Part shown: positions 21,748 through 59,921 of the stretch, one piece after another
How the letters are laid out: every line of letters starts with the position of its first letter
How positions within the stretch are numbered: position 1 is the first letter of the stretch
Virus record (IMG/VR): IMGVR_UViG_3300032223_001943
Location: 59,202 to 123,201 of that record
Length of the DNA: 64,000 bases
Strand: one strand, 5' to 3'
Origin: a virus
Made by a program: the position numbers and the translations under genes
The notes under the pieces: model-generated
The model's input: the letters and a program-made list of their open reading frames with translations, nothing else
Databases searched by the model: none
Told to the model about the DNA's origin: nothing

Positions 21748-23082
21748 TCATTTATCAAACGTTACTTTGATTGGGCAAACTGGAATACCCTCTATCCCAT
21801 CAACAAATGCATTTGGGACTACTTTTCGTATGATGTTAAACGAACCGTTAACATCGGCGTTAATGGTTGTTTTTTCACCTTTTATTTTATATAAACCTCT
21901 ATGTTGTCTATAACCGGAAAAGTTATAAAGATTTTCATCATTTTCACCACCATATATCGGTATTTCATCCATATTCATGAAGCTAGCTTTACTAGTATAC
22001 GATTCTTCCGTTAAAATAACAATTAATCCATTAAGTTTGGCTTTGTATAATATTTGGTCAATTAATTTTGAAAATGGTATTGATACGAATGATTGATTGT
22101 TCTTTTTACCATTATTAACTCCTTGTTTCCAAAATTTATTTTTACCAACACATATTGTTTTAATTTCATTATTTAAACAAAAATCAATTAAATAATTTGA
22201 TGTTTGATGAAAATATTTCTCTATTTTACCATTGCGTTTATTAGTTAATTGATTAATTTTTTTTGAATGTTTAACTTGTTTTGAACCTTCTTTACCATAG
22301 TTAAGTTTATATTCATCTAATTCTACTTTAGATTTATTTGGCAATTCCGACATTAATTTAGATTTGGTTTTATTATAAAATTGGTTAATTGATTTAATTG
22401 GTCTACCGTTAATAAGTACAGGTCTTACCCCCTTTTTATTTGATGTTATAGTTATTAAATTATTAACACCCAAATCCACACCAACGTATGAATTATCTGG
22501 AAAATCTACTTCATAATTTTCTTGTTTTTCATATACAATTTCTATTTTATATTCGATTTTATTAATCGGAACTATTCGTACCTGATTCAATTTATTTGTA
22601 TTATTTATAAATGGTATTATTAAATTTGTTTTTGACAATTTAACTTGTTTATGCTTTTTAAGATAAGGTTTAGATATTGCACCCAATTCATACTCCAACA
22701 TAACCCTACCATTTAATTTATTTTTATAATTAGGTAAACTAGGTTTACCGGTATATTTGTGAGGATTTTTCTTCCAATCTTTTATTGACTTAAAAAATGA
22801 TTTCCAATTCTTATCTAATTTCATTAAAACTAAACTAGACACTTTAGCTGGTAATGACTTATAATTTTCATCCGACTTTAGAATTTTTTTTAAGTCATAA
22901 TAACCGAAATATATTGCATGGTCACACTTCCCTTCTTCTTTTAATTTAGAAGTCTCAATGAATGTTTGTCTAACAATAAAATTAGCTCTATTATATAAAT
23001 TTTTACCCAAAAAACATAGATTATCTATTTCCTTAAAAAAAGGATTATTATTGTCAATAATATGTTTTTCGATTAAAATCAT
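21748..23082 (-). CDS. tnpB: TnpB, variant with non-canonical RuvC-II and no zinc ribbon
   Basis: 444 aa RNA-guided nuclease family protein. RuvC-I Asp in YVGVDLGVNNLITI and RuvC-III Asp in TTINADVNGSFNII are present. Where canonical TnpB has a Glu (ED motif) this one reads TICVGKNKFWKQG. A Glu pair appears instead in LTEESYTSKASF. The CxxC pairs of the target-nucleic-acid-binding domain are lost. This matches a known TnpB subgroup with relocated RuvC-II Glu, so activity is plausible. The guide RNA would overlap and extend past the 3' end at 21748. Confidence 0.85.
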   Translation of the reverse strand: MILIEKHIIDNNNPFFKEIDNLCFLGKNLYNRANFIVRQTFIETSKLKEEGKCDHAIYFGYYDLKKILKSDENYKSLPAKVSSLVLMKLDKNWKSFFKSIKDWKKNPHKYTGKPSLPNYKNKLNGRVMLEYELGAISKPYLKKHKQVKLSKTNLIIPFINNTNKLNQVRIVPINKIEYKIEIVYEKQENYEVDFPDNSYVGVDLGVNNLITITSNKKGVRPVLINGRPIKSINQFYNKTKSKLMSELPNKSKVELDEYKLNYGKEGSKQVKHSKKINQLTNKRNGKIEKYFHQTSNYLIDFCLNNEIKTICVGKNKFWKQGVNNGKKNNQSFVSIPFSKLIDQILYKAKLNGLIVILTEESYTSKASFMNMDEIPIYGGENDENLYNFSGYRQHRGLYKIKGEKTTINADVNGSFNIIRKVVPNAFVDGIEGIPVCPIKVTFDK

Positions 23083-30935: not shown

Positions 30936-31344
30936 ACATAAATACCTTAAAATACAAAAACCCTATCCCAAAATATAATACAACATAAGTTTATACAACC
31001 CCTCCATTTTTCAAAATTTTTTACCAGAAATTTTTTTTTTGATTTTCACTTATTTTTAGAATGAAAAGTTTTTAACCAACATTATAAAACCCCCTTATAG
31101 TATGGGGGGGAATAAAAACCCAATTTTCAGAAAAAAAATAGTAGAAAATTTTTTTAAACAATGTACGAATTAATTCGGCTATCATGGCCCTATATAACAC
31201 TTCTGAAGCGGGGCGGAGTAAGGAAGGACCCCTAGCTTTAAGGTAGCCCGGGGGTCTATAACCCACTATCCCCACCCCACCTAATAAAAAAGATCTAGAA
31301 TAAGATAAGTCCCCCCTGGTAGAATAAACGACAATGTCAAGGGA

Positions 31345-31426
31345 TGTTGATAACTTTAATGTGAGTTAGGTTATGAACACGACAGTGTTGATAACTTTAA
31401 TGTGGGGGAAAGTTATTAACATGACA
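31345..31426. repeat. iteron-like AGTTATCAACA repeats (left flank)
   Basis: TGTTGATAACTTTAATGTG occurs at 31345-31363 and again at 31386-31404, 41 bases apart, followed by the related AGTTATTAACATG from 31411. The core TTATCAACA differs at one position from the DnaA box TTATCCACA. A 37-base version starting at 31345 recurs at 35464 with four changes. Confidence 0.6.
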
Positions 31427-31458
31427 GTGTGACATTGTTGTGGATCCGGTGGGGGATT

Positions 31459-31586
31459 TTACATCCCCACGAGTTGGGGGGGAATGAAATGACCTTATGA
31501 TCCCCCATTCAACGATAAAGGATTAGAAGTTAATCCCCCATTCAATTAATAACATTCCTGGGGGATATAGAATCCCCACGAGTTGG
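31459..31586 (+). repeat. hairpin followed by ACGAGTTGG, copies 1 and 2
   Basis: A GGGGAT/ATCCCC hairpin immediately followed by ACGAGTTGG occurs twice, the CCACGAGTTGG cores lying at 31467-31477 and 31576-31586. Two more cores are at 36148 and 36169 on the far side of the RNA locus, again each after a short hairpin. Function unknown. Confidence 0.55.
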
Positions 31587-32119
31587 TGATCATCGATCCA
31601 TTCCAGATGTTGGGGGGGATATAAAATATATCTTCAATGAAATAACCATTGACAGTTATGGATGGAATATATATGATTGTTTTATTATGGGAATTATTAT
31701 ATTACTATTGGTTATTTTATTTGTTATGTTGATCTCTTGGTTTATGGAGGGATATTATGTTAATCGATATAACAATATGATCACCAGGTTCTGGAGGGAC
31801 CACGTTATCGGTGAGGATATTTGATAGGTTTCGTTTGATTTAAGATCATTTTATATGTTGGGTGGTATGTTTATATCATTTAATAATTTAACATACCTTA
31901 GAATTAATTAAAATAAATTTATAATATTATTTGTTTTATTGGAAAAGATGTTATATATTTGTTGAAGAAATAAGTTCATTGACATATTGGTTTGAGAATA
32001 AGATTAACCCCCTCGTTATTAATTAAGTTGGGGAATTTATATATACCGAACCTTAGGTTATCAATACGGGTTAGTACCTGTGGAGATAAGGGTGGACGAT
32101 CAGGAAAGACTGATAATTC

Positions 32120-32202
32120 TGAAGGGTGGTCGAGTGGTTAAAGGCGTTTGACTGTAAATCAAATCTCGTAAGAGTACGGGGGTCCAAATCCCTCCCCTTC
32201 AA
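32120..32202 (+). tRNA. trnY: tRNA-Tyr (anticodon GTA)
   Basis: Class II tRNA of 83 bases. Acceptor TGAAGGG pairs fully with CCCTTCA, the anticodon loop is CTGTAAA between TTTGA and TCAAA, there is a long variable arm, and the T-arm is GGGGG/CCCTC around TCCAAAT. CCA is not encoded. The only fully regular tRNA I find here. Confidence 0.9.
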
Positions 32203-32218
32203 CTGAATAATTATATAT

Positions 32219-32337
32219 GACCAGGTGGTGGAATGGATTGGGGAAACTCGGTCGTTGATAAACACACATATCCATACAGGGATGACGCGGCACTGTATTA
32301 CCGGGTCTTGCAAGTTTGAATCTTGCCCTGGTCACCA
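32219..32337 (+). tRNA. tRNA-like gene with enlarged central region (Leu-like ends)
   Basis: Acceptor GACCAGG pairs perfectly with CCTGGTC, T-arm GCAAG/CTTGC holds TTTGAAT, discriminator A, and CCA is encoded at 32335-32337. The start TGGTGGAATGG resembles tRNA-Leu D-arms. At 119 bases it is about 30 longer than a class II tRNA and no ordinary anticodon arm can be assigned. It shares GGAAAC and TAAAC elements with the gene at 33518. Confidence 0.6.
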
Positions 32338-32413
32338 ATAACCCCACCGATTTATATAATGGGGGTTTTATATAAAAGAAATGGATGACCATGAAACGTA
32401 ACTAAATAAACTA

Positions 32414-32448
32414 AAAGTTCCCACGGTAGTACATGGATCAGGAACTTT
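32414..32448 (+). ncRNA. 8 bp hairpin in the RNA locus
   Basis: AAAGTTCC and GGAACTTT enclose a 19-base loop, followed by TTATC. Could end the upstream tRNA transcript or be part of a small RNA. Confidence 0.35.
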
Positions 32449-32515
32449 ATCTATTTCATTAATTAAACCCCCTCGTTATTATGAATGGGGGGAATTACAA
32501 CCACCAATTAAAATG

Positions 32516-32617
32516 GACAACAAACTCTTCACCGAGGAAAACCTTTAAACCAGATTCACAACTGTAAAGGTCGTTGAGTTGGGTAATATTAAATGTGAGT
32601 ATTACCTGTTGTCTTTT
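32516..32617 (+). ncRNA. cloverleaf-like structured RNA with terminator-like tail
   Basis: GACAACA (32516-32522) pairs exactly with TGTTGTC (32607-32613). Inside are ACCTTTA/TAAAGGT (32541-32547 with 32565-32571) and GGTAATA/TATTACC (32582-32588 with 32600-32606), each 7 bp, plus a possible short CTC/GAG arm. TTTTTAT follows. The layout mimics a tRNA, but the T-arm-position loop lacks TTCRA and no anticodon loop of 7 is present. Structure read by eye. Confidence 0.5.
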
Positions 32618-32630
32618 TATAATGGGGATA

Positions 32631-32655
32631 AACAGATTGACCCAAAGGCATGGGT
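32631..32655 (+). repeat. 24-25 base RNA-locus repeat, copy 1
   Basis: Reads AACAGATTGACCC, then AAAGGCAT, then GGGT. The first 24 bases are identical at 33431 and 33739. It can form a hairpin with arms ACCC/GGGT and an invariant AAAGGCAT loop. Here it follows the cloverleaf-like RNA and precedes a T-loop-like GGTTCGAATCC. Confidence 0.7.
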
Positions 32656-32920
32656 GTGAATATAGTATAAGGAACGTAATGGTTCGAATCCTGTCCTGAA
32701 CCACTGGGAGGGTTTATAGTATTCTTGTTAATTGATCGAGGTGTTTTCCCTTTATAATGAAACCCAAATGAATTAACCCCGTTTTTGGTTGAGTGGTTAT
32801 GGAACCAAGGACTTTATATTGGAAAATGGTTTGTCCTAACAAAATCTATTTCTATGGTATAAGTGGGTTTGATCACCCCATCCATTAATTTGATTGATCA
32901 TCCCAAAGATCAATCCGGAA

Positions 32921-33006
32921 TATTGGGTAATGCGTAATGTGGAAATGGTTATCACATCCAACTAAAAAGGGTTGCATTGTTGGTGGTTCGAATCCACCCC
33001 CAATAT
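32921..33006 (+). tRNA. tRNA-like gene with regular acceptor and T-arm only
   Basis: Acceptor TATTGGG pairs fully with CCCAATA and T-arm GGTGG/CCACC holds TTCGAAT. The middle 54 bases do not give normal D and anticodon arms; an extra AATGC/GCATT stem encloses GTAA/TTAT and CAAC/GTTG hairpins. Isotype cannot be assigned. Confidence 0.5.
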
Positions 33007-33100
33007 CAAGCGGTTGTTTGAACTTGGAACTAGGACAACAACAATCATCGGATGAATCCAAGCGTCGTGGATGGTGGTGAAAGGAAGGTCAACTTTCAAG

Positions 33101-33131
33101 GTGGGGGTACCAAATGGATCAAATCCCCCAC
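33101..33131 (+). ncRNA. T-arm-like hairpin with expanded loop
   Basis: GTGGGGG and CCCCCAC pair over 7 bp around TACCAAATGGATCAAAT. Removing the CCA-AA-TGG mini-hairpin leaves a T-loop-like sequence. A tRNA body is not evident around it. Confidence 0.35.
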
Positions 33132-33233
33132 ATTTTTATTCGGTATGGGTGTTAGAAATTAGATTCCCATGTGGTCCATCGTATATTCGTTATACAACGG
33201 ACGACTGACCTTAAAGAAGGCGACCGATTATAT

Positions 33234-33427
33234 GTGTTGTTCCCTTGAGATAGGAAAAAGATAGTACTTATAGACTCGTATAAGCAACACAGAGGCTCTT
33301 AACCTCAAAAATATCAGTATCAAGAGGCAACATTAGGGGTGTCTGTATCTATTGTGCTGATGAAAAGTAGAGAGAACCGTTTATTTGCGGGTAACCATAA
33401 AATAGGCAAACGTCATACTCTACTTTT
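33234..33427 (+). ncRNA. structured RNA region
   Basis: GTGTTG (33234-33239) pairs with CAACAC (33285-33290), enclosing TTCC/GGAA and CTTATA/TATAAG hairpins. A GAGG/CCTC stem with 7-base loop CTCTTAA follows. Then AAAAGTAGAG (33363-33372) pairs with CTCTACTTTT (33418-33427) over 10 bp, three bases before repeat copy 2. No known RNA family is recognised. Confidence 0.45.
33368..33387 (+). repeat. 20-base repeat, copy A
   Basis: TAGAGAGAACCGTT followed by TATTTG; recurs at 33640-33659 as TAGAGAGAACCGTT then AGTTTG. Both copies lie 44 to 80 bases before a copy of the AACAGATTG repeat, so the two motifs form one repeated module. Confidence 0.6.
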
Positions 33428-33430
33428 AAA

Positions 33431-33454
33431 AACAGATTGACCCAAAGGCATGGG
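33431..33454 (+). repeat. 24-base RNA-locus repeat, copy 2
   Basis: Same 24 bases as copy 1. Followed by a TGTAAC/GTTACA hairpin and an ACAGG-TTGCTTC-CTGTT T-arm-like hairpin immediately before the tRNA-like gene at 33518. Confidence 0.7.
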
Positions 33455-33517
33455 GTATAAAAAACTGTAACCATTTGTATGTTACACAATCTGAACAGGT
33501 TGCTTCCTGTTATTTAT

Positions 33518-33638
33518 GGTGAGATGGTGGAATTGGTAGACACTACAACGTGCGATGGCAGGTGGAAACCCTTGAGGTAAACCCATAGGAGAAGAGACAC
33601 ACATACTCTTCATGCAGGTTCAAATCCTGCTCTCACCA
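33518..33638 (+). tRNA. tRNA-Leu-like gene with enlarged central region
   Basis: Acceptor GGTGAGA/TCTCACC, D-arm GTG-GAATTGGTAGA-CAC typical of tRNA-Leu, and T-arm GCAGG-TTCAAAT-CCTGC are all regular. The 70 bases between D-arm and T-arm are about twice the normal amount. They contain CTTGAGG, as around a GAG anticodon, and a GAAGAG/CTCTTC stem that could be the variable arm. An unspliced insert or an altered RNA are both possible. Confidence 0.65.
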
Positions 33639-33639
33639 C

Positions 33640-33659
33640 TAGAGAGAACCGTTAGTTTG
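33640..33659 (+). repeat. 20-base repeat, copy B
   Basis: Begins directly after the discriminator region of the tRNA-Leu-like gene. Differs from copy A at two positions. Confidence 0.55.
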
Positions 33660-33738
33660 AGGTTGTTTACAGCTGTATAAAAGGAAGCGGTAGCTTAAAG
33701 TTGAAGTTGACTGGGACATAGCGTTGTCTAAAACTTAA

Positions 33739-33763
33739 AACAGATTGACCCAAAGGCATGGGT
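33739..33763 (+). repeat. 24-25 base RNA-locus repeat, copy 3
   Basis: Same as copy 1 including the 25th base, giving a 5 bp GACCC/GGGTC stem. It ends two bases before the tRNA-Arg-like gene. Confidence 0.7.
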
Positions 33764-33764
33764 C

Positions 33765-33837
33765 TACCTAGAAATGTAATTGGAAAGCATATTTCTTTTC
33801 TAAAGAAATCGTTTAGGTTCGAACCCTAATAAGGATA
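33765..33837 (+). tRNA. probable tRNA-Arg (anticodon TCT)
   Basis: 73 bases. Anticodon arm TTTCT-TTTCTAA-AGAAA gives anticodon TCT. D-arm ATGT-AATTGGAAA-GCAT and T-arm TTAGG-TTCGAAC-CCTAA are good. The acceptor (TACCTAG with TAAGGAT) pairs poorly, only three or four of seven, so the gene may need editing, be decaying, or have a different 5' end. Confidence 0.55.
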
Positions 33838-33900
33838 TATTTTTTTTATAGTTTTTGGTTCGATTAGTTAATTTCATAATATTTATTATAAAAAAATATT

Positions 33901-34503
33901 ATGAAATTTAGTGAAAAGTACAAAAAAGAAGAACTAGAAAATTTAATTATTAATCAAAAATTGTCTTACCGTGAAATTGGTAGGATATATGGTGTGAGTG
34001 ATACTTACATTAAAAAAGTGGCTAATAAATTAGGTATTATTTTAGATAAAAGAAAAATATTTAAAAATGTGGTTGTACCACATAATAAAGGTAATGGTAA
34101 AAAAATTAATTGTAAAAATTGTGGTGTTGAAATTTATCGACCTTGGGACAATCAAAAATATTGTTCAAACGAATGTCATAATGAACTAAAAGTAAGGGAA
34201 AAATACATTAATTATTTAAATTCACAAGAAGAATATAGTAATCTAAATACTGATATGCATTGGGTTAAAAAACATATATTAAATGAACAAGAAAACTCAT
34301 GTGAAATATGTGGTATAAAAAATGAGTGGAATGGTAAACCTTTAGTGTTTGTTTTAGACCATATAAGTGGTAAAGCACATGATAACACTAGAAATAATTT
34401 AAGATTAATTTGTCACAATTGTGATTCACAATTAGATACGTATAAATCTAAAAATAAAAATTCAGATAGAAAAGATAGATATTTAAAAAACTATAAAAAT
34501 TAA
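33901..34503 (+). CDS. HNH homing-type endonuclease (200 aa)
   Basis: N-terminal helix-turn-helix (LSYREIGRIYGVSDTYIKKV), a zinc pair CKNCGVEIYRPWDNQKYCSN, then an HNH domain: CEICGIKNEWNG, VFVLDHISGKAHDNTRNNLRL, CHNCDSQLDTYKSK. It lies inside the tRNA locus with AT-rich flanks, as free-standing homing nucleases do. A group I intron core was not recognised. Probably a selfish element targeting this locus. Confidence 0.8.
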   Translation: MKFSEKYKKEELENLIINQKLSYREIGRIYGVSDTYIKKVANKLGIILDKRKIFKNVVVPHNKGNGKKINCKNCGVEIYRPWDNQKYCSNECHNELKVREKYINYLNSQEEYSNLNTDMHWVKKHILNEQENSCEICGIKNEWNGKPLVFVLDHISGKAHDNTRNNLRLICHNCDSQLDTYKSKNKNSDRKDRYLKNYKN

Positions 34504-34780
34504 AATATACCATCCCTGGGTTTGAATCCATCTGGAATCACAAAAGTATTTACAATTTTTATTGTGATCCGCTTAACCTCTCCCATGAATAATGGTGACG
34601 GAGCGGTTCTCCCCCATAATGAATTCCAAACTGGGGATGTTGATAAACCTAATAAGATATCAACTTTTTTATAACAAATTATTATTCCCCTCGATTCCTG
34701 GTGGGGGATTTATCCCGACTTTAATATAAAACAAAAATGGGGGATTTATTCCCCCATTCCTATTATCTTTTATAAATAAT
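34504..34780. other. gene-free spacer in the RNA locus
   Basis: Contains a T-loop-like GGGTTTGAATCC near 34519, GTTGATAAAC similar to the iterons near 34640, and CCCC/GGGG hairpins near 34685-34760. No full tRNA or gene found. Confidence 0.4.
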
Positions 34781-35179
34781 TTATTTCATATAAAAAGAAG
34801 AAACCTGGAGTCCCCTTCTACTAACATATTCCTTCTCACCCCAATTATACACAACAGAATAAAAATCCACAAGTTCTTCCGGAAGTTCCTTATATAATCT
34901 TGTCACCATTTCACGAATAGTGTCAACGTCCTCAGCACTAACTGACTTAAAATACATATGTAGATTATAGAAATCCTTAATAGATGGATATCGTTTCCCC
35001 AATATATTTCCATCAACCTCCAGATCAATAAAGATCACCGTGTCAATCTTCACAACACGATAACCAATAATATACGGATAACGCCTACGCAATGATCGAA
35101 CAATCAAACCAATACCAACAGTATTGATATCATCGTCATATCTATACACATCACCATCCACTTCTTTAACAACTTCCAT
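34781..35179 (-). CDS. hypothetical protein with overlapping late motif (132 aa)
   Basis: Start at MEVVKEVDGDVYRYDDDINT. The minus strand reads AATATTTATGG, so the ATG is part of the TATTTAT motif itself. The body has IGLIVRSLRRRYPYIIGYRV and MYFKSVSAEDVDTIREMVTR. No family recognised. Codon use resembles its neighbours. It is the only other gene inside the RNA locus. Confidence 0.6.
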   Translation of the reverse strand: MEVVKEVDGDVYRYDDDINTVGIGLIVRSLRRRYPYIIGYRVVKIDTVIFIDLEVDGNILGKRYPSIKDFYNLHMYFKSVSAEDVDTIREMVTRLYKELPEELVDFYSVVYNWGEKEYVSRRGLQVSSFYMK

Positions 35180-35382
35180 AAATATTAAAACATAAAATAC
35201 CAGGAGGGAAATTATCCCCCGATTAGAAAATACATTGGGGGATATCCCCAACCAAGATCATAATAAAAAATCAATCCCCCAAAATCAATCCGAACCCCCT
35301 ACGGCCGTTAAGTGTCTCAAACAACAAACAATCAATTCCAGGATCTCCATCCCTTATTAATAAATATAACCATATTCAAAAA

Positions 35383-35525
35383 AGTTATCAACAATTAATG
35401 TGTTTATAATAAAGTTATTAACAATTGGTGTGTTTAATATATATGGGGTTTGTCATTATGTCATGTTGATAACTTTAATGTCAATTAGGTTATGAATATG
35501 AAATGTTCATAACTTTTACCCATTT
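35383..35525. repeat. iteron-like repeats (right flank)
   Basis: AGTTATCAACAATTAATGTG at 35383, AGTTATTAACAATTGGTGTG at 35412, the inverted TGTTGATAACTTTAATGTC at 35464, and TGTTCATAACTTTTA near 35503. The copy at 35464-35500 matches 31345-31381 over 37 bases with four changes. Confidence 0.6.
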
Positions 35526-36147
35526 TTCTTGATTTTGTCAAAATGTCATGTTCACGTTAAGATGGGGATAATCCCCCAGGTGTAATAACTGGTGTAATAA
35601 CAGTTATGATTCCCCCACCATAAATCATATATAATTCTCCATCTATATATTAAATCTTCTATATGTTTGTTATAGATTATTCTCCTACTTCCATATAAAT
35701 TATTTTAAGGTATGATGATTAACAATTTTACTATCGTTGAAGATTATTATATTCCCACATATTACCACCTCATGTGATTAACATCACCACAATGGGGTTT
35801 TTCATATTATTAATAGATTAATTTATATATATGATTTACCTTTTTTTTACCTTGAAGATATATATTAATAAAGGTGTCTTATGGTTGTATGTACTACACT
35901 AGGGATGATTTTTTTCTTATACAGAATATTCTTATAACCATATCTTGATTCTTTATAGTGATATGGGTAAAATCCTTGTTTTTGATATCAATAGAGGGGT
36001 TTATTTTACTATATACTATTCCCAGCAAATATTTATACCCACCCTTATTGAGGCCGTGGGAGTCCTTTAGGACGTTTTAATTGGATATAAAAATGTATTC
36101 CTTCAACGAATTCCTTATATGATTGTGGTAAATTGTGGGAGTTTACT

Positions 36148-36180
36148 CCACGAGTTGGGAATGAAATTCCACGAGTTGGG
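36148..36180 (+). repeat. CCACGAGTTGGG, copies 3 and 4
   Basis: CCACGAGTTGGGA at 36148-36160 and CCACGAGTTGGGA from 36169. Each is preceded by a hairpin (GGGAG-TTTA-CTCC, then GGGAAT-GA-AATTCC), the same arrangement as at 31467 and 31576. Confidence 0.55.
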
Positions 36181-36572
36181 AATAAAAACAAATCACCTTA
36201 TATCATATATAATATTGATTATCCCCCCAAATTATTAGATCACCCCATTTATATTTGGAGTTTACTCCCCCTTATATATTGGGGTCACCATAAATAATTT
36301 ACCTTTATGATCTGTATTGAAAATGTTTGATTTAAGGGGGTTTCATATATCTGGATATATATTGTGTTCACCCACCACAAAAACATTCCTTAAATGATAT
36401 GAAAACGATTTATATGACAAATGGGGGGAAGACCATTAATGAACGAACGAACCCCCGCGATTTATCGCCAGTGAAGGGTGTCAACCCGAACGTATAAGGG
36501 GGGGTTTGAGTGAATGAAGGGGATTGCCATCATATGATAAATGGATAATTTTTGGTGGATCGTGTGGTTGAA

Positions 36573-36610
36573 ATAAAAAACCCCCAGGATTTATTCGGTG
36601 GGGGATTAAT
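36573..36610 (-). terminator. intrinsic terminator
   Basis: ATCCCCCACCG and GGGGG arms followed by TTTTTTAT on the minus strand after the gene at 36611. Confidence 0.65.
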
Positions 36611-44227: not shown

Positions 44228-44935
44228 TTATTTTGATATTTTTTCAATAAATTCTTTAACCCCTTCTGTCGCAGGTTTTTCAATATAAGTAATATTATAT
44301 TTGGATAATGTTTTGACTGGGTTTGGATCAATATAAAAAACTTCGCACCCTTCTTTTACATTGGATAATAATGTTAATGTATATGATATGGATAAACTTG
44401 TTCCAATGATTAATAAGATATCCGCCGTTGATATTTCCGTATATGCTTCATCAACTTGAAATGGGTATTCTTCAAACCACACAATATGTGGTCTTAACTG
44501 TGAATTTGTTTTTTCGCACTTATCACCAACTTTAATTTCATTATAACCAATATCATAAACTGTATCATAATTTGTTGTTGACCCATTGAAGAATGTTCCC
44601 CTCACTTTTGTTAATTCGCCATGAAGATGTATCACATTTGTGGCACCCGCACGTTCCAACAAATCACTAACATTTTGGGTAATATGGATAACATTAAAGT
44701 TTTCTTCCAATTGGACCAGTTGTTTGTGTGCGTCGTTTGGTTCAACATCTTTAAGTTGTGATCTTCGTTCATTATAAAAATCCAACACTTTTTCACGATT
44801 CTTCTTCCAACCGGTTGGTGTGCAGACTTCCTCAATGTTATAGTTATTCCAGGTTCCGTTATTTGTGTCCCTGAACGTCGTTATCCCCGATTCTTTATCT
44901 AAACCAGCCCCACTAAATATTGTGATCTTTTTCAT
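44228..44935 (-). CDS. sirtuin-like NAD-dependent deacylase
   Basis: 235 aa. FSGAGLDKESGITTFRD (NAD-binding GAG), HITQNVSDLLERAG, VIHLHGEL with catalytic His, RPHIVWFEEYPF, DILLIIGTSLSISY. Departures: the canonical TQN-x-D reads TQNVS, and the zinc-binding Cys pairs are absent (only one Cys follows the His). It removes acyl groups from Lys using NAD. It could change host or phage protein acylation, or NAD level. Confidence 0.85.
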   Translation of the reverse strand: MKKITIFSGAGLDKESGITTFRDTNNGTWNNYNIEEVCTPTGWKKNREKVLDFYNERRSQLKDVEPNDAHKQLVQLEENFNVIHITQNVSDLLERAGATNVIHLHGELTKVRGTFFNGSTTNYDTVYDIGYNEIKVGDKCEKTNSQLRPHIVWFEEYPFQVDEAYTEISTADILLIIGTSLSISYTLTLLSNVKEGCEVFYIDPNPVKTLSKYNITYIEKPATEGVKEFIEKISK

Positions 44936-46508: not shown

Positions 46509-48131
46509 CTATGCTGATATTCGCACACATTTTGACTTGTGTGATTCTAAATTTTTACCTAAAGACCCGATAGGGTTCCTCCATCTCAATGAGGAGATAA
46601 TAGAATATAACTCACGCCAATTTGTCCATTTCTTATCAATATTCTCTCCAAGTAGATAGTTCAACTTCTCTTGATTTATTAACGATAATGATGGATATAT
46701 GCTATTACCTTTTATATATTTTATAATTCCACGTCTACCAATTTCCATTGCCGCGGCAACTGGATCCGGATAATCGTAGATTAAATTTCCAATAAAACTA
46801 GAATAACAAGGATTAACCATTATTAGATTTAATCCAATATTTTGACAATATTTTAAGATTAATTTTGATGTTAATTCTCTATGCCAAATGTTTTTTGTTA
46901 TTCTATTCGCATCTTTTGATTTGTCTTTATGGTCTGGTTTGAAATCCAGATCTTCCATAACAAAATTATAAACACGATAATGTTTAACCAAATTAAAAAT
47001 ATATTTCCACACATTCGTTATTTCGGTTTTTCGTTTATTATTTTGTTTAATTTGTTTTTTATCCGATGACGATAACTTTAATTTTGTTCCTAATCTTGAT
47101 AAATCAATAACTTCTTTATAAATTATTTTTCCAACTTGATTCTTTTTTGTTTTATCAAAAATAACAAAACCAATATATTTTGGATTTAAGTCAACTGAAA
47201 TGTAACGACCTTCAACCTTATTAAGTTTTTTTCTATTTTCAAGTTCGGTTATAAATTCTTTATATATTTCTTTTTTTTCTTCTGGAGTATCAACAAGTTT
47301 TTGTTGTTTTTTACATTCGATATTATTAAATGAAAATCCATTTAATAATTCATTATCATATCCAAATATGATATCATTATTAATAACTCTAACAGTTAAT
47401 GGTATTAACTTATCATCCGTTAATAACTGAAGTTGATTGAATAATTTTCTTTTATTTTTTGGAATGTTAACTTCAATTTCAATGGAAGTATTTCTGTTTG
47501 GTTTGAATATTACTTTATTGTTGTTAAAATCAAAAAAGAATTTTCTATTACCTTTTTCACATGCACTTCCAATAAAGTAAAACCCAATAACTCTGTTATT
47601 TTTGAATTCGGTCTTATATTTTAATAATAGTTCTTGTTTTCCCTGAATTGTTTTTTTGATAATATCAATTTCTTTTTTATCCATTATTTTTGATAATGTG
47701 ATATTTAAGGAGTTAATTTTAACATTTAATTTTGTTATTTTCCGTTGTAAAGATTTTCCTCCAAAAGTTATATTTTTTCCAATATTTCTTTTATATCTAT
47801 TGACTTTATTGATTAAATGAAATTTTCTTCGTTTTTCTTTTTTCGTTAAGAATTCTTCATTCTCTAAAATCTTCTCAATTTTTTTAATTTCATTTAACTT
47901 CTTTTCTTCACTGGTTTGATATTGATTATATTTTGTTTTAACATCTTGTTTACATATTTCATATATTGATTGATCTATATATTGATTCAATTGTTGTTCG
48001 TTAAATGAATTATCTGACAATAATTCTAGATTATTATATAATTTATAAAACAATCCGGTATAAGTGGATTGATATTTCATTAACAATTCATAATCCGAAC
48101 AATTGGTTATATGTAGTTTTTCACTTAACAT
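46509..48131 (-). CDS. tnpB: long TnpB without zinc ribbon
   Basis: 540 aa, longer than the usual 350 to 450. RuvC-I Asp in RYISVDLNPKYIGFVIF, RuvC-II Glu in NFVMEDLDFKPDH, RuvC-III with NPCYSSFIGNLIYDYPDPVAAAMEIGRRG, whose Asp completes the triad. No CxxC pairs. The same architecture is seen in the copy at 62447. The N-terminal 200 residues are Lys-rich and coiled-coil-like. Probably an RNA-guided nuclease of the TnpB-related YTS/YSS-IG clade. Starts inside the recombinase gene (11-base overlap). Confidence 0.85.
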   Translation of the reverse strand: MLSEKLHITNCSDYELLMKYQSTYTGLFYKLYNNLELLSDNSFNEQQLNQYIDQSIYEICKQDVKTKYNQYQTSEEKKLNEIKKIEKILENEEFLTKKEKRRKFHLINKVNRYKRNIGKNITFGGKSLQRKITKLNVKINSLNITLSKIMDKKEIDIIKKTIQGKQELLLKYKTEFKNNRVIGFYFIGSACEKGNRKFFFDFNNNKVIFKPNRNTSIEIEVNIPKNKRKLFNQLQLLTDDKLIPLTVRVINNDIIFGYDNELLNGFSFNNIECKKQQKLVDTPEEKKEIYKEFITELENRKKLNKVEGRYISVDLNPKYIGFVIFDKTKKNQVGKIIYKEVIDLSRLGTKLKLSSSDKKQIKQNNKRKTEITNVWKYIFNLVKHYRVYNFVMEDLDFKPDHKDKSKDANRITKNIWHRELTSKLILKYCQNIGLNLIMVNPCYSSFIGNLIYDYPDPVAAAMEIGRRGIIKYIKGNSIYPSLSLINQEKLNYLLGENIDKKWTNWRELYSIISSLRWRNPIGSLGKNLESHKSKCVRISA

Positions 48132-48720
48132 CCGATAGGTTAATTTCTTCTGAAGTTAATGACTCAATTATTTTTTTTCTTTTTCTACTTGAATATATTT
48201 TAGATGAAAAATGATGGATTATCGCTATCATGTCATCAATAATTTCTTGATTTTTGGTTTTGTCAATTGTGTTGTCCAAGACGATTAAATTAACATTAAA
48301 TAATTTACATAAGTGTTCAAAATCGTCAAAACCAATTCTTAATAACCTGTCCTTATATTCAATTATTATTGTATCGATATTTTTTGATATTATTTCTTTA
48401 TATAAACGTCTATATTCTTTTCTATTATAGTTTAAAGCAGAACCAATTTCAGAATATATTTCATCAACGATCAAACCTTTAGCTGAAGCAAAAGATTTTA
48501 ATCGTTCAACTTGTCTTGTTAAATTTTCTTTTTGATTTGTTGTTGAACATCTTGCGTATAATACTGTTTTACGGTTAACCATTTCCAATGGATCAACTTT
48601 ATCAATATAATCATAACGACCGGTTGGTGTTATGGTATAACTAATTTTTCCTTGTTTAACCCATCGACATAAAGTTTCTCGACAAATGTTATATTTTAAC
48701 ATGACTTCTTTCGCTTTCAT
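48121..48720 (-). CDS. tnpA: IS607 serine recombinase TnpA
   Basis: 199 aa. HTH KYNICRETLCRWVKQGKI, serine nucleophile in VLYARCSTTNQ, YSEIGSALNYNRKEY, IEYKDRLLRIGFDD. Closest here to 61858 at the N-terminus (MKAKEV). TATATTTATTAGT ends directly at its ATG. Confidence 0.9.
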   Translation of the reverse strand: MKAKEVMLKYNICRETLCRWVKQGKISYTITPTGRYDYIDKVDPLEMVNRKTVLYARCSTTNQKENLTRQVERLKSFASAKGLIVDEIYSEIGSALNYNRKEYRRLYKEIISKNIDTIIIEYKDRLLRIGFDDFEHLCKLFNVNLIVLDNTIDKTKNQEIIDDMIAIIHHFSSKIYSSRKRKKIIESLTSEEINLSDVK

Positions 48721-52770: not shown

Positions 52771-52826
52771 CAAATGTTAAAATTCCGAATTTGGACTTTT
52801 TCAAACCTTAATAGGTTTGAAGTCCT
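52757..52826 (-). ncRNA. probable omega-RNA 3' part for TnpB of element 3
   Basis: TTCAAACC/GGTTTGAA plus GGAC/GTCC form a bulged hairpin at 52793-52825 overlapping the tnpB 3' end. In TnpB systems the guide RNA covers the 3' end of tnpB and runs into the flank. Here the guide would come from the GIY-YIG gene below 52757. Confidence 0.4.
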
Positions 52827-54180
52827 TAGCGGAACTATGGCCGCGTTGATCTCTCCAAACATTATTCAATTCAGTTAATGATTGGAGGATTTCACTTTTT
52901 GATTTATTATTATACCCAGAACTTCTAGATATATGATTTCTTGACGCATTAACATCGGCATTTATTTTTAAACCACAACATTTACACACAAATTCAGATT
53001 GAGTTTTACGATTTTTCTTATCCGTATAATGACAATTTGAACATTCTTGTGACGTATACGCTGGGTTTTTTTCTTTTGTTATAATTAATTTACATTCACT
53101 TAAACTAGATAACTTATTACGTATCACATTTTTCCCAAAATTATTTAATAAACGATTGTTTACTTTACCGATATTTTGACCTCTAAAATCCAATTTTTCA
53201 ACATGGATTTCACTTGGTTTATATCGTTTAACCAATTTATTTAATACTCGGTTAATTTCATTTTTAATAAAACTTTTTAATTTTTTATTTAATTTAACGT
53301 ATCGTTTTGAATTACTTGGTTTAATATTTTGTTTTTGTAGATTAACCATTAATTTGGTTATAATCTTATCCATATTTTTAATATAATTCATCGCTTTTTT
53401 ACCCAACAAATCACCATGATTTGTTGCGAATAAATTAACCAAACCAACATCCAAACCTAAAATTGATAATTTGTTAGCAACATAACTTTTATCAACATCA
53501 ATTGATTTTATTAATGAAAATGTTAATGTATTATTTTTTTTATTAATCTGGATTGAATTTTTAATTATACCTTCTTGAGAATTAAAGAAATCATTAGTTG
53601 TCAACGGAATCATTACCGGTTTACCTTTAACCAATGTTGAAATTTTTAACCAATAATTAAAAGTAGTCGTCCCATCACTAGGGATAATCTGAACAACTTT
53701 ACCGTCTAACGATAAATTAATTGACTTATATTTTGGTTTGTTTTTTGTTAATTTTTTGAATATGTGTCTAGCTAAACGTAATATTTCCGGTTCGATTGGA
53801 TTTTTCTTCATGATAACCTCCTTATCAAACCATTTTTTGTATTTATTTATATATAATAATTTTAGTCTAACATCTTCTTCAATTGATGAATTTATTACTT
53901 TATCAACAAATCTTAATTTTACATTGGAAATATATGAATCTAACATCCCAACAACTTGATATTGACAAGTTTGTTTATAACGTTCAGATAAATTTATTGG
54001 TAAATCTGTTATTTTTAAGTTTTTATTAAATTTCGTTCCATTTTTATAAAACAATTCCCATTGTTTATTGGAAATTTGTTTTGCTGAAATTCTATACATA
54101 TCAACAACGTCCATTAACAAATCAAGTTTATTTTGATTTGAATGGTTTTTTAATTGATATGATCTAAATATTTCAGTCAT
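52801..54180 (-). CDS. tnpB: TnpB, canonical RNA-guided nuclease with zinc ribbon
   Basis: 459 aa. RuvC-I Asp in ILGLDVGLVNLFATN, RuvC-II Glu in EIHVEKLDFRGQ, zinc ribbon CSNCHYTDKKNR and CKCCG, RuvC-III Asp in KINADVNASRNH. The full D-E-D set and CxxC pairs make it the most canonical of the four. Overlaps tnpA by 8 bases. Confidence 0.95.
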   Translation of the reverse strand: MTEIFRSYQLKNHSNQNKLDLLMDVVDMYRISAKQISNKQWELFYKNGTKFNKNLKITDLPINLSERYKQTCQYQVVGMLDSYISNVKLRFVDKVINSSIEEDVRLKLLYINKYKKWFDKEVIMKKNPIEPEILRLARHIFKKLTKNKPKYKSINLSLDGKVVQIIPSDGTTTFNYWLKISTLVKGKPVMIPLTTNDFFNSQEGIIKNSIQINKKNNTLTFSLIKSIDVDKSYVANKLSILGLDVGLVNLFATNHGDLLGKKAMNYIKNMDKIITKLMVNLQKQNIKPSNSKRYVKLNKKLKSFIKNEINRVLNKLVKRYKPSEIHVEKLDFRGQNIGKVNNRLLNNFGKNVIRNKLSSLSECKLIITKEKNPAYTSQECSNCHYTDKKNRKTQSEFVCKCCGLKINADVNASRNHISRSSGYNNKSKSEILQSLTELNNVWRDQRGHSSAKDFKPIKV

Positions 54181-56916: not shown

Positions 56917-57009
56917 TTAGAATTTACCGAAGAATGAATATTCCCTACATTTCCGAACTTCTTCTTCAATGAACCTTAAATAATCATATATTTCCTTAAA
57001 AATTCCCAT
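56917..57009 (-). CDS. 30-residue peptide
   Basis: MGIFKEIYDYLRFIEEEVRK, then CREYSFFGKF. Start overlaps the 3' end of the PseT-like gene by 14 bases. Helical. Confidence 0.4.
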   Translation of the reverse strand: MGIFKEIYDYLRFIEEEVRKCREYSFFGKF

Positions 57010-57895
57010 CTTCCACCTGGAATACTTTTAGTTTATTTTTTCTCCATTGTGTAATAACCTGGTTACGATCATCATACACAAATAAAACATTATAGTTTTC
57101 TTTAATATAATTATCGTAGATTTCTTGTTTTATAATCGAATCTTTACGATTATCATTATGTTTACGCATATATATCCCATCAAAAGGAATGTTATGTTTT
57201 TCCAACCATTGAACCGTTAAATCTTGACAAACTTCATCACGACCAGAAACAATAAACACCTTTTCATTTAATAGTTTATGTTTTCTTAATCTGTCCGCAA
57301 CAACTTCATCAACATCGTCCAAATCAACTTTATTCCATTCAAAAGGACCACGTTTTCCATTCATATGGGCCAATGTTCCATCAACATCACATAAAATGAC
57401 ATCTTCTTTTGATGGATCTTTAATTGGATTCTCGTAGATATAGTTTTGTTTTTTTCTGGGTGAGAAATCAAACGTTTTAATTAAATTTTGATAATTCTCA
57501 AACATCTTTTCAATAACTTCTTTTCCCACCGATCGTTCTCGTTTTGAATCACGTTCAATGGCATCATCAATTGTTATATCCATAACTTGAAATTCAACAT
57601 TTGCCCTGGTGATAACCAAATCAATGAATTGATTAATATATTTTTCACGAACATTGGTATTATCAATAATAACATTCAAACCCTTATTTAACGCGGAAAT
57701 AACCGATGAATTGATAATATCGGTGATTAATTCTTCCGTTTTATTATCACAGAAGGGAATATTCTTAAACATAAACCTAAAATCATCACGATTCATTCTA
57801 ATCCAATTTGGATTTTCCTTAATAAAGTTCAAGGAATATGTTGATTTTCCACTACCAGGAATTCCAATCATTATTTTAACTGTAGGCGTTTTCAT
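56996..57895 (-). CDS. pseT: polynucleotide 5'-kinase/3'-phosphatase (T4 PseT-like)
   Basis: 299 aa from MKTPTVKIMIGIPGSGKSTY, matching T4 Pnk length (301). Kinase half: P-loop GIPGSGKS, then INRDDFR-type MNRDDFRFM, and DNTNVREKYI. Phosphatase half: VILCDVDGTLAHMNGKRGPF (HAD DxDGT), IVSGRDEVCQDLTVQWLEKH, FVYDDRNQVITQWR. Repairs RNA or DNA ends. In T4 it counters host tRNA cleavage with an RNA ligase, not found here. Useful beside the odd tRNA genes. TATATTTG precedes it. Confidence 0.95.
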   Translation of the reverse strand: MKTPTVKIMIGIPGSGKSTYSLNFIKENPNWIRMNRDDFRFMFKNIPFCDNKTEELITDIINSSVISALNKGLNVIIDNTNVREKYINQFIDLVITRANVEFQVMDITIDDAIERDSKRERSVGKEVIEKMFENYQNLIKTFDFSPRKKQNYIYENPIKDPSKEDVILCDVDGTLAHMNGKRGPFEWNKVDLDDVDEVVADRLRKHKLLNEKVFIVSGRDEVCQDLTVQWLEKHNIPFDGIYMRKHNDNRKDSIIKQEIYDNYIKENYNVLFVYDDRNQVITQWRKNKLKVFQVEDGNF

Positions 57896-57899
57896 ATGA

Positions 57900-57907
57900 C
57901 AAATATA
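57900..57907 (-). promoter_or_regulatory. Bacteroidota-type promoter element TATATTTG
   Basis: Minus strand TTTATATTTGTC, 4 bases before the PseT-like start. Confidence 0.5.
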
Positions 57908-57995
57908 AAGAAAAAAAATATTAACGACAATCACCCAACATAGGATTTATTTATTAACTTCACCAAAAAGTTATTAACATTAAAAACTAAAAGTC

Positions 57996-58530: not shown

Positions 58531-59921
58531 TAATCAATTCGCATGACAATATAATAGTCATGACCTATTTTATATTCGTCATATCGACCATCGTAACCAT
58601 TTAAATCACCATAATCACCATTATTAGCCGCGTCCCTAGCAATTTCATCCAAATCAACATAACCACTAATGACTTTTGAATCGTAACCCATATCTTTTAA
58701 GAATTCATAAGGATCACGTCTAATATCTTCAAGTCGTGATTCAACTTCACCATCAATCATTTCGTCACTAACTTCTGGTGTCATTTCATCAATTTCTTCT
58801 TGAGCTCGTTCCTTATTAGATTCAGCTTCGTCAATCCATTCCTGAATTTCTTCATTTTCTTCATCACCCATTTGGTCTTGAAGTTCACTTATCTTATCGT
58901 CCAATTCGTTGATATAATCTTCAAGTTCCTGAATTCGTTCCTGTTGTTCCTCCGAATAACCAACGTTATCAAAATAAGATTCCAAATTTTCACGAATATC
59001 TTCATCATAATAATCCCTGAAATCTTCAGCAACCCTATCACCATCAAGATTACCTTCAATATAGTCAGAAAATGAATCAAGACCAACATCATCAATTAAA
59101 TTGCGATAATAATCAACCAATGATTCGTGAGCGTCATCGGATCGTTTAGTAGCATATTGTTTTGGATTACGTAAATCACCCATACCTTTAACACGATAAA
59201 CATTAAAATCGTAATGCGAACTATATGTTGGTAATACATCATAAACATCAATGTACGATTTCAGTTCTTCAAGACGACCCTCAATTTCATCATATTCTTC
59301 TTGTTGTTCATCGGTCATTTCAGTAAGACTATCCAACTCCTCAAGACGATTCTCAAAACGAATTTTTTCTTCACGTTCATCTGGTTCTAATTCATAAACA
59401 TCACCTTGATCCACAACATATTTCAATACCGACCAAGCCTCAGACGCTTCTTCACTACTATCTGGATCGTCCCAAGTACCTTCTTGTCTACGTTCATTAG
59501 CTTCATCCAATTCTTTTTGATACTCAGCTTGTAACTGTTTGGTTTCATATTTAGATCCCCATACTTTAACACTACCATATTCAACCCGGTCAATAGATTC
59601 AACGTTAGTATTAGATATATCTAATTGACCCTGAACATATTTAAGGTTACCTAAATCGTTTAAGTTTTCACAACCAGATAAATTTAAACCACCATCAACA
59701 CCAGTAATATTCCCTAAACTTATTAAATTTTTATTTTTAATTGTTAGGTCACCATCAACCCAAATCGGTCTATTTTGCAATAAACGATTAAACACTTGCG
59801 TACCATGAACTTGGTCAATAATATAATTTAATTTCCCTGGTTCAATATGAATATATTCATCATCTTGTTCATTCAAAACACGATAAATAAAATTTTTTAA
59901 TTGTTGTTCAGTTAGTTCCAT
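58530..59921 (-). CDS. large acidic coiled-coil protein with targeting-like N-terminus
   Basis: 463 aa. MELTEQQLKNFIYRVLNEQD is a variant of the shared N-terminal class. Residues 45-120 have LRR-like steps (NLISLGNITGVDGGLNLSGC, LGNLKYVQGQLDISN). From residue 150 a long acidic coiled coil (RIQELEDYINELDDKISELQ, NEEIQEWIDEAESNKERAQE). The tail DEIARDAANNGDYGDLNGYD is also acidic. Late motif at 59922-59935. Possibly an abundant head-interior protein. Confidence 0.6.
   Translation of the reverse strand: MELTEQQLKNFIYRVLNEQDDEYIHIEPGKLNYIIDQVHGTQVFNRLLQNRPIWVDGDLTIKNKNLISLGNITGVDGGLNLSGCENLNDLGNLKYVQGQLDISNTNVESIDRVEYGSVKVWGSKYETKQLQAEYQKELDEANERRQEGTWDDPDSSEEASEAWSVLKYVVDQGDVYELEPDEREEKIRFENRLEELDSLTEMTDEQQEEYDEIEGRLEELKSYIDVYDVLPTYSSHYDFNVYRVKGMGDLRNPKQYATKRSDDAHESLVDYYRNLIDDVGLDSFSDYIEGNLDGDRVAEDFRDYYDEDIRENLESYFDNVGYSEEQQERIQELEDYINELDDKISELQDQMGDEENEEIQEWIDEAESNKERAQEEIDEMTPEVSDEMIDGEVESRLEDIRRDPYEFLKDMGYDSKVISGYVDLDEIARDAANNGDYGDLNGYDGRYDEYKIGHDYYIVMRID

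Follow-up and report, generated by a model that had tools for sequence, protein, structure and literature searches.

An array of tRNA-like and other structured RNAs with exchangeable inserts in an uncultured phage genome

An RNA array in a coding-poor interval

We examined a window of 64,000 nucleotides (nt), positions 59,202 to 123,201 of the 123,201-base IMG/VR virus record IMGVR_UViG_3300032223_001943, and within it a 5.7 kb interval (30,936-36,610) that holds just two likely genes, an HNH gene and an open reading frame (ORF) of 132 amino acids (aa). A sequence-only reading had described this interval as an RNA locus, and as a candidate undescribed system rather than a plain tRNA cluster. 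The genes, tRNAs, altered tRNA-like RNAs and repeats that it listed were all present on re-examination, and the results below support an undescribed structured-RNA system. The interval is indeed coding-poor, but RNA elements could be demonstrated only between about 32,060 and 33,840, on the + strand and thus opposite to the genes on both sides; the remainder is non-coding DNA with iteron-like repeats. Comparison with related sequences indicates that the elements very probably share a modular anatomy, in which conserved scaffolds, those of tRNA type having lost the decoding arm, exchange inserts, here called payloads.

The locus is not unique, being a small, partly decayed example of arrays found in well over 100 uncultured phage contigs (cited below by L numbers). 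Almost every segment between 32.06 and 33.84 kb recurs in other IMG/VR phage contigs, in different order and neighbourhoods. The three exact copies claimed for a 24-base repeat are there (32630, 33430 and 33738; exact over at least 25 bases), and its 22-base core is found unchanged in 14 other IMG/VR contigs, far above chance. Only the copy at 33430-33511 is a complete module, however, while the other two are 5' fragments of that module fused to tRNA remnants. Both copies of a 20-base repeat (33368 and 33640) were likewise recovered, and are 87% alike over 23 nt. What did not survive was the treatment of these repeats as features distinct from the RNAs: the 24-base repeat supplies one strand of a scaffold, and the 20-base repeat lies within another hairpin element.

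ARAGORN found the one normal tRNA that had been reported, Tyr(GUA), and Rfam gave two further above-threshold tRNA matches (33518-33638 and 33765-33837) as well as a weak match to tRNA-Sec at 32920-33006. In the Rfam check that had been proposed, only tRNA among the Rfam 15 families matched in the window, and at gathering threshold the window and 21 array loci together yielded only tRNA and one transfer-messenger RNA (tmRNA). No tmRNA was found in the window by ARAGORN or Rfam.

Scaffolds, modules and payloads

In related contigs the tRNA-like RNAs share the frame AGTCAGG - TGGCGGAAUUGGUAGACGC - insert - CAGG UUCGAAU CCUG - CCTGACT, with a length of 54-191 nt, and a 24-mer core of their T arm and acceptor occurs in at least 120 contig stretches. 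These AGTCAGG-type RNAs have the acceptor, D and T arms by which a functional tRNA is recognised, and of 200 longer copies 193 have A at the discriminator position. Their anticodon arms were assessed by a mechanical test (5 base pairs, a 7-nt loop, U33 and a purine at position 37) applied to loci picked by motifs that exclude the anticodon. A normal arm was present in 2 of 274 (1%) distinct AGTCAGG-type copies, compared to 353 of 502 (70%) other tRNA genes from the same loci, and shuffled middles gave 0 and 1 passes. The shortest copies (54-59 nt) have no space for an anticodon arm at all. As read from their sequences, the tRNA-like RNAs are unable to decode codons.

Two of the tRNA-like RNAs in the window have other acceptor stems (32219-32336 and 33518-33639), and one belongs to a subtype with an extra stem (32921-33006), the G type. 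When ten G-type RNAs were aligned (alignment A1), 98.7% of cells paired and 13 of 23 pairs had changed on both sides, a level reached by none of 500 shuffles and by slid controls only up to 2. The extra stem itself varies from AUGC/GCAU to AUAC/GUAU and ACGC/GCGU. Elsewhere in the array, element J carries a compensatory change from A-T to G-C in L236, and in the hairpin at 32384-32460 the pair AAGTTCC/GGAACTT becomes AAGCGCC/GGCGCTT in L147. A lack of stem conservation in related phages, which was to count against the RNA system, is contradicted by these comparisons, in which stems are conserved with compensatory changes.

Besides the tRNA-like RNAs, the array contains two further scaffolds built from an outer stem, two hairpins and a variable arm. 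Module A, read from 14 contigs, consists of ACAGATTGACCCAAAGGCATGGG, a variable stretch, then CAATCTGAACAGG(T)TGCTTCCTGTT; the complete window copy (33430-33511) matches L005 at 96.5% over 86 nt. Module B, which adjoins it and follows the same plan, reads GTGTTGTTCCCTTGAGAAAGGA, a variable stretch, then CAACACAGAGG-loop-CCTC. Its 20-base core is exact in at least 120 IMG/VR virus contig stretches, with one mismatch in the window copy, and a search of 84,980 species genomes of bacteria and archaea placed it in 2 contigs. No convincing location of the core emerged from 50,697 phage records; a 21-base match in Pseudoalteromonas phage HM1, without partner strand or array, was taken as chance. A blind scan for the architecture (stem, hairpin, insert, stem, hairpin, complementary loops) returned 321 matches versus 38 in shuffled DNA, about half of the 321 being module B counted in several registers.

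In one family of module B payloads both sides have changed at three pairs, including one that links the two hairpin loops. In L153, loop I changes from CTTGAGAAA to CTTGATAAA while loop III reads TTATC rather than TTCTC, and a search for further loop I variants added one more virus, L257, with the same compensating change. This covariation, on few cases, supports a kissing pair between the hairpin loops of module B. A variant in L258 was set aside because it appears inside a gene and not in a module. For module A, of which divergent copies are lacking, a kissing loop joining AGGCA to UGCUU is possible. A large variant of module B with several variable arms, B2, lies near array starts (L045:1893-2658, L101, L124 and L138), in L101 and L138 behind a Bacteroidota-type promoter; L045 has a genuine tmRNA separately. 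Just upstream of module B in L103 and L111 there is also a recurrent, structured-looking segment, GATAGTGGTTTTCCCCAC...GATGGGTACTCC...CACTATC, which is not in Rfam.

Payloads move between scaffolds. The payload of the tRNA-like RNA at 33518-33639 recurs without change over 69 nt in L243, where it sits on an AGTCAGG scaffold whose acceptor and T stems differ in sequence with pairing kept, and the payload of 32219-32336 recurs in L122 on a different acceptor stem (AGTCAGG), at 84% over 111 nt. A third payload (CACCACGGTCCATAA...GAGAAGT) occupies three different tRNA-like frames, in L058, L110 and L111. Between modules, payload pairs with E < 1e-4 numbered 1 for A and B1 and 6 for B1 and B2, versus 1 match in all in the reversed-sequence control.

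A comparable arrangement exists in a cultured phage, Tenacibaculum phage pT24 (LC168164), for which four tRNAs are annotated (PMC5502841) and whose array spans 191,520-192,478. Two of the four, labelled 'tRNA-Undet', are tRNA-Ile-like genes with a hairpin instead of the anticodon loop, and further foldable sequences lie between them; in a related contig, L228, the tRNA-Ile loop is normal. The pT24 array is related to modules A and B in kind, not in sequence, and provides a cultured handle, with two non-decoding tRNA-like genes in such an array. Beside these genes pT24 also carries a tRNA with a CUA anticodon, an amber suppressor or Pyl-like (L259:5286-5360).

The array elements, their surroundings and the phage

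The elements of the array and the features around it are collected in Table 1. The chimera at 32630-32706 matches L016 at 98% over 54 nt and then continues into T-arm/acceptor-like sequence, and the third copy of the module A repeat (33738) is joined to a tRNA-Arg(UCU)-like gene whose acceptor stem is broken. In the Rfam match to the second tRNA-like RNA (37.9 bits), a middle of 61 nt falls outside the tRNA model. The Bacteroidota promoter consensus precedes several related arrays; the candidate promoter in the window is weak alone, its motif having ten + strand matches in the 64 kb, and is placed as in the arrays of L101, L138 and L049.

Table 1. Features of the array and its flanks, in window coordinates.
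Feature	Position	Strand	Remarks
Flank repeat, left copy, TTATCAACA-type	31344-31382	+	Outside the RNA system
Candidate Bacteroidota-type promoter, TTG-N20-TATATTTG	31931-31961	+	Upstream of array
Element J, hairpin RNA before tRNA	32064-32119	+	Recurs in L236, L069, L018, L252
tRNA-Tyr (GUA), ordinary	32120-32203	+	ARAGORN; Rfam RF00005, 54.3 bits
tRNA-like RNA 1	32219-32336	+	Acceptor GACCAGG/CCTGGTC; payload replaces anticodon and variable arms; fold -39 kcal/mol
Hairpin element	32384-32460	+	84% over 73 nt in L147 and L077
Chimera	32630-32706	+	5' part of module A (repeat copy 1 and payload common to L016) fused to tRNA 3' half
G-type tRNA-like RNA	32921-33006	+	Acceptor, T arm, extra AUGC/GCAU stem around D-like hairpin and payload site
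Element F, conserved RNA segment before module B	33161-33233	+	96% over 51 nt in L013; also L005, L012, L122, L141, L143
Module B	33234-33308	+	Outer stem GUGUUG/CAACAC, hairpin with loop UUGAGA, payload arm, hairpin GAGG-loop-CCUC
Element E	33313-33361	+	100% over 48 nt in L142; 96% over 54 nt in L016
Element K, long hairpin with 20-base repeat copy 1	33364-33428	+	78% over 69 nt in L110; fold -16 kcal/mol
Module A, complete	33430-33511	+	Predicted fold: outer stem CAGAUUG/CAAUCUG, hairpin CCC-loop-GGG, payload, hairpin AACAGG-UUGCUU-CCUGUU
tRNA-like RNA 2	33518-33639	+	Leu-type D arm; acceptor GGTGAGA/TCTCACC; anticodon arm replaced by payload of about 70 nt
Element K, 5' fragment (20-base repeat copy 2)	33640-33664	+	
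Element C	33665-33741	+	97% over 78-99 nt in L010 and L013
Module A 5' strand and hairpin (repeat copy 3), incomplete	33738-33763	+	
Degenerate tRNA-Arg(UCU)-like gene	33765-33837	+	Rfam tRNA, 33.8 bits; mismatched acceptor stem
HNH endonuclease gene	33901-34503	+	PHROG HNH families, E 5e-21
Small gene, 132 aa	34781-35179	-	From ORF list; without Pfam family
Flank repeat, right copy	35463-35501	+	90% identical to left copy; outside the RNA system

The HNH gene lies directly 3' of the RNA array and probably encodes a free-standing homing endonuclease. A DNA relative of it in the crAss-like phage cr116_1 sits between tRNA-Leu and tRNA-Arg, and HNH-like ORFs were read from the sequence of two other arrays, L061 and L103.

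The matching repeats reported on both flanks are real, with 39 nt at 90% identity (31344 and 35463) and three exact copies of GTTGATAACTTTAATGT around the array, for which shuffles of the window average 1.03 matches even when up to 3 mismatches are allowed. They proved to be a feature separate from the RNA system, of a TTATYAACA type that resembles a DnaA box. Of 19 such sites, 7 fall within the 5.7 kb (31345-31421, 34638 and 35385-35472), a clustering above chance, and by sequence the cluster is a possible origin or regulatory region; GC skew gave no clear turning point for the origin reading.

The source is a tailed phage, as judged from window proteins that include a baseplate-type protein and a head maturation protease along with thymidylate synthase, polynucleotide kinase, Sir2 and several transposases. 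We infer a Bacteroidota host because TAnnTTTG-type promoters lie upstream of related arrays, one related contig was binned to Sphingobacteriales (another to Mollicutes), HNH genes similar to the one here occur in crAss-like phages, and the cultured comparison phage pT24 infects Tenacibaculum. The polynucleotide kinase gene (56996-57934) belongs to a family that serves tRNA repair in T4; no RNA ligase was found in the phage record, part of that search being without a positive control. A Sir2-family NAD-dependent deacylase gene is located at 44228-44935. At 46509-48720, a serine-recombinase-type transposase gene (phrog_6620) adjoins a 540-aa gene without PHROG or Pfam family, a pair that looks like an IS607-like one, and a divergent TnpB-like nuclease may be what the larger gene encodes. 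Two more transposase-like genes are found at 21748-23082 (phrog_506) and 52801-54180 (phrog_12300), and a lone tRNA-Ser(UGA) lies elsewhere in the phage record, outside the window (L302:18335-18422).

A proposed role, and the alternatives

The best overall explanation, which we hold tentatively and at a little under an even chance, is that the locus encodes a series of non-coding RNAs of 'scaffold plus payload' design. The scaffolds are tRNA-like folds, which retain the acceptor, D and T arms and lack the anticodon arm, together with at least two clamps of non-tRNA type (modules A and B), and each offers a position for unrelated RNA inserts that, as the sequences show, are swapped between phages. 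Most likely the array would be co-transcribed with genuine tRNAs as one precursor, which host RNase P and RNase Z would cut apart, so that the tRNA frame would both free the payload and shield it. Acceptor and T-arm folds are the minimal substrates of these two enzymes, and since both are present here we consider release by tRNA processing fairly probable. Recombination at shared scaffold sequence, probably aided by the neighbouring HNH homing endonucleases, would then produce new combinations together with broken chimeras. The likeliest use of the released RNAs would be as protein-binding decoys or competitors, first of all for host enzymes that attack or bind tRNA in antiphage defence, and payload exchange could supply new specificities, the weakest step of the scheme. 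A decoy function is uncertain and on balance doubtful; it is favoured because tRNA cleavage is a common antiphage strategy that phage tRNAs evade, and because the homing endonuclease SegB amplifies a tRNA-Tyr locus against Septu (PMC10264068, PMC11555353, PMC12851939, PMC13096335). The sole intact tRNA of the window is likewise a tRNA-Tyr, and the phage also encodes a polynucleotide kinase.

Several results weigh against the scaffold-plus-payload explanation. In 39 loci (0.53 Mb) found via a neighbouring gene, neither a tRNA-like gene nor the module B 5' core was present and only four isolated degenerate motif matches occurred; relatives sharing the neighbour gene without the array led us to reject syntenic conservation. 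The window array is partly decaying, since neither the tRNA-Arg nor two of the three module A copies are intact. Payloads were only slightly more stable than shuffles, with a mean z of -0.64 versus -0.38 for random DNA of the same loci, and strongly stable payload folds were not found in this comparison. A terminal closing helix scoring at least 5 was enriched (33.5% of payloads versus 20.5% of mismatched partners) and is confined to a minority. With weak fold stability and closing helices in a minority, many payload structures are unproven.

The weak folding of the payloads, along with the two clear chimeras of the window (32630-32706 and 33738-33837) and the HNH gene beside the array, would also suit recombination debris, a now functionless mixture left after homing endonucleases and illegitimate recombination had scrambled tRNA genes and structured RNAs. 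We consider this unlikely for the array because decay would affect every part equally, whereas acceptor, D and T arms are nearly perfect and the anticodon arm alone is lost; moreover, payloads are 80-100% identical across contigs in different scaffolds, and stems carry compensatory changes. For individual elements an origin as debris is possible.

Frames made of tRNA or hairpins can stabilise antisense RNAs, and the diversity of the payloads would fit scaffolded antisense RNAs that pair with host or phage transcripts and regulate them. When all payloads were compared by BLAST with 2.4 Mb of array-bearing contigs, however, strong matches lay in RNA-array contexts and no antisense gene targets were evident in these contigs. 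A guide or antisense reading was rejected for want of evident complementary targets in these contigs, and we rate it as improbable. We give as little weight to another idea, that the elements are parts of larger ornate RNAs or RNA-only assemblies joined by kissing loops, like ROOL and GOLLD, which are phage RNAs near tRNA islands (PMC12286853). The kissing-loop pair of module B agrees with it, but the modules are short (~75-150 nt), are found singly or in changing order, and differ in copy number. The covariance models of ROOL and GOLLD matched nothing in the window or 21 array loci at gathering threshold, and a scan of the window at a weak threshold was also negative for both; on the Rfam scans at the two thresholds, a known RNA family was rejected. 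Finally, although the inserts occupy the usual position of tRNA introns and group I introns in tRNA genes are known, splicing to ordinary tRNAs is very improbable and was rejected, as no group I or II intron core was found by Rfam in the window or 21 array loci at gathering threshold, no conserved anticodon stem surrounds the insert, and the 54-59-nt copies are too short for any anticodon arm.

Each trait of the scaffold-plus-payload array has precedents on its own, in phage tRNA arrays, in tRNA-like folds with inserts and in structured RNAs near tRNA islands; what appears new is the combination of interchangeable payloads with several scaffold types. The tRNA arrays of phages T5 and T6, which counter tRNA-targeting defences, share clustered tRNA genes, adjoining homing endonucleases and ready recombination, but here the AGTCAGG-type members are non-decoding, carry foreign RNA for an anticodon arm and are interspersed with non-tRNA modules. 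ROOL and GOLLD are likewise structured phage RNAs near tRNA islands with loop-loop contacts, but each is one RNA of 500-800 nt, in contrast to short modules in variable order around an exchangeable insert and without an Rfam match. A tmRNA has the same tRNA-like acceptor and T arm and carries a domain foreign to tRNA where the anticodon arm would be, whereas the inserts here are highly diverse. Laboratory expression of RNA on a tRNA scaffold (PMC3753655) also places foreign RNA on a tRNA frame for processing and protection; unlike that construct, the arrays would be natural, multi-copy and recombining. In the open-access literature we found no description of these sequences or of a natural tRNA-scaffold system, and large surveys of structured phage RNAs could list some of the motifs.

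Phage tRNA arrays have so far been studied mainly for codon use and defence. It is conceivable, though we would not expect it on present evidence, that phages, probably of Bacteroidota, maintain a combinatorial RNA system, in which fixed scaffolds, tRNAs that do not decode as well as two or more clamp folds, bear hundreds of swappable payloads, are joined into arrays by recombination and serve as a changing repertoire of RNA effectors directed at host proteins. If the AGTCAGG-type members are indeed scaffolds that do not decode and carry exchangeable RNA, gene finders would have overlooked a large class of phage RNAs, most of which ARAGORN missed and of which Rfam recognises just the tRNA frame. 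Such arrays would parallel the laboratory tRNA-scaffold method in nature, with RNA domains shuffled much as protein domains are, and the question of what the extra RNAs do in phage tRNA islands would become testable.

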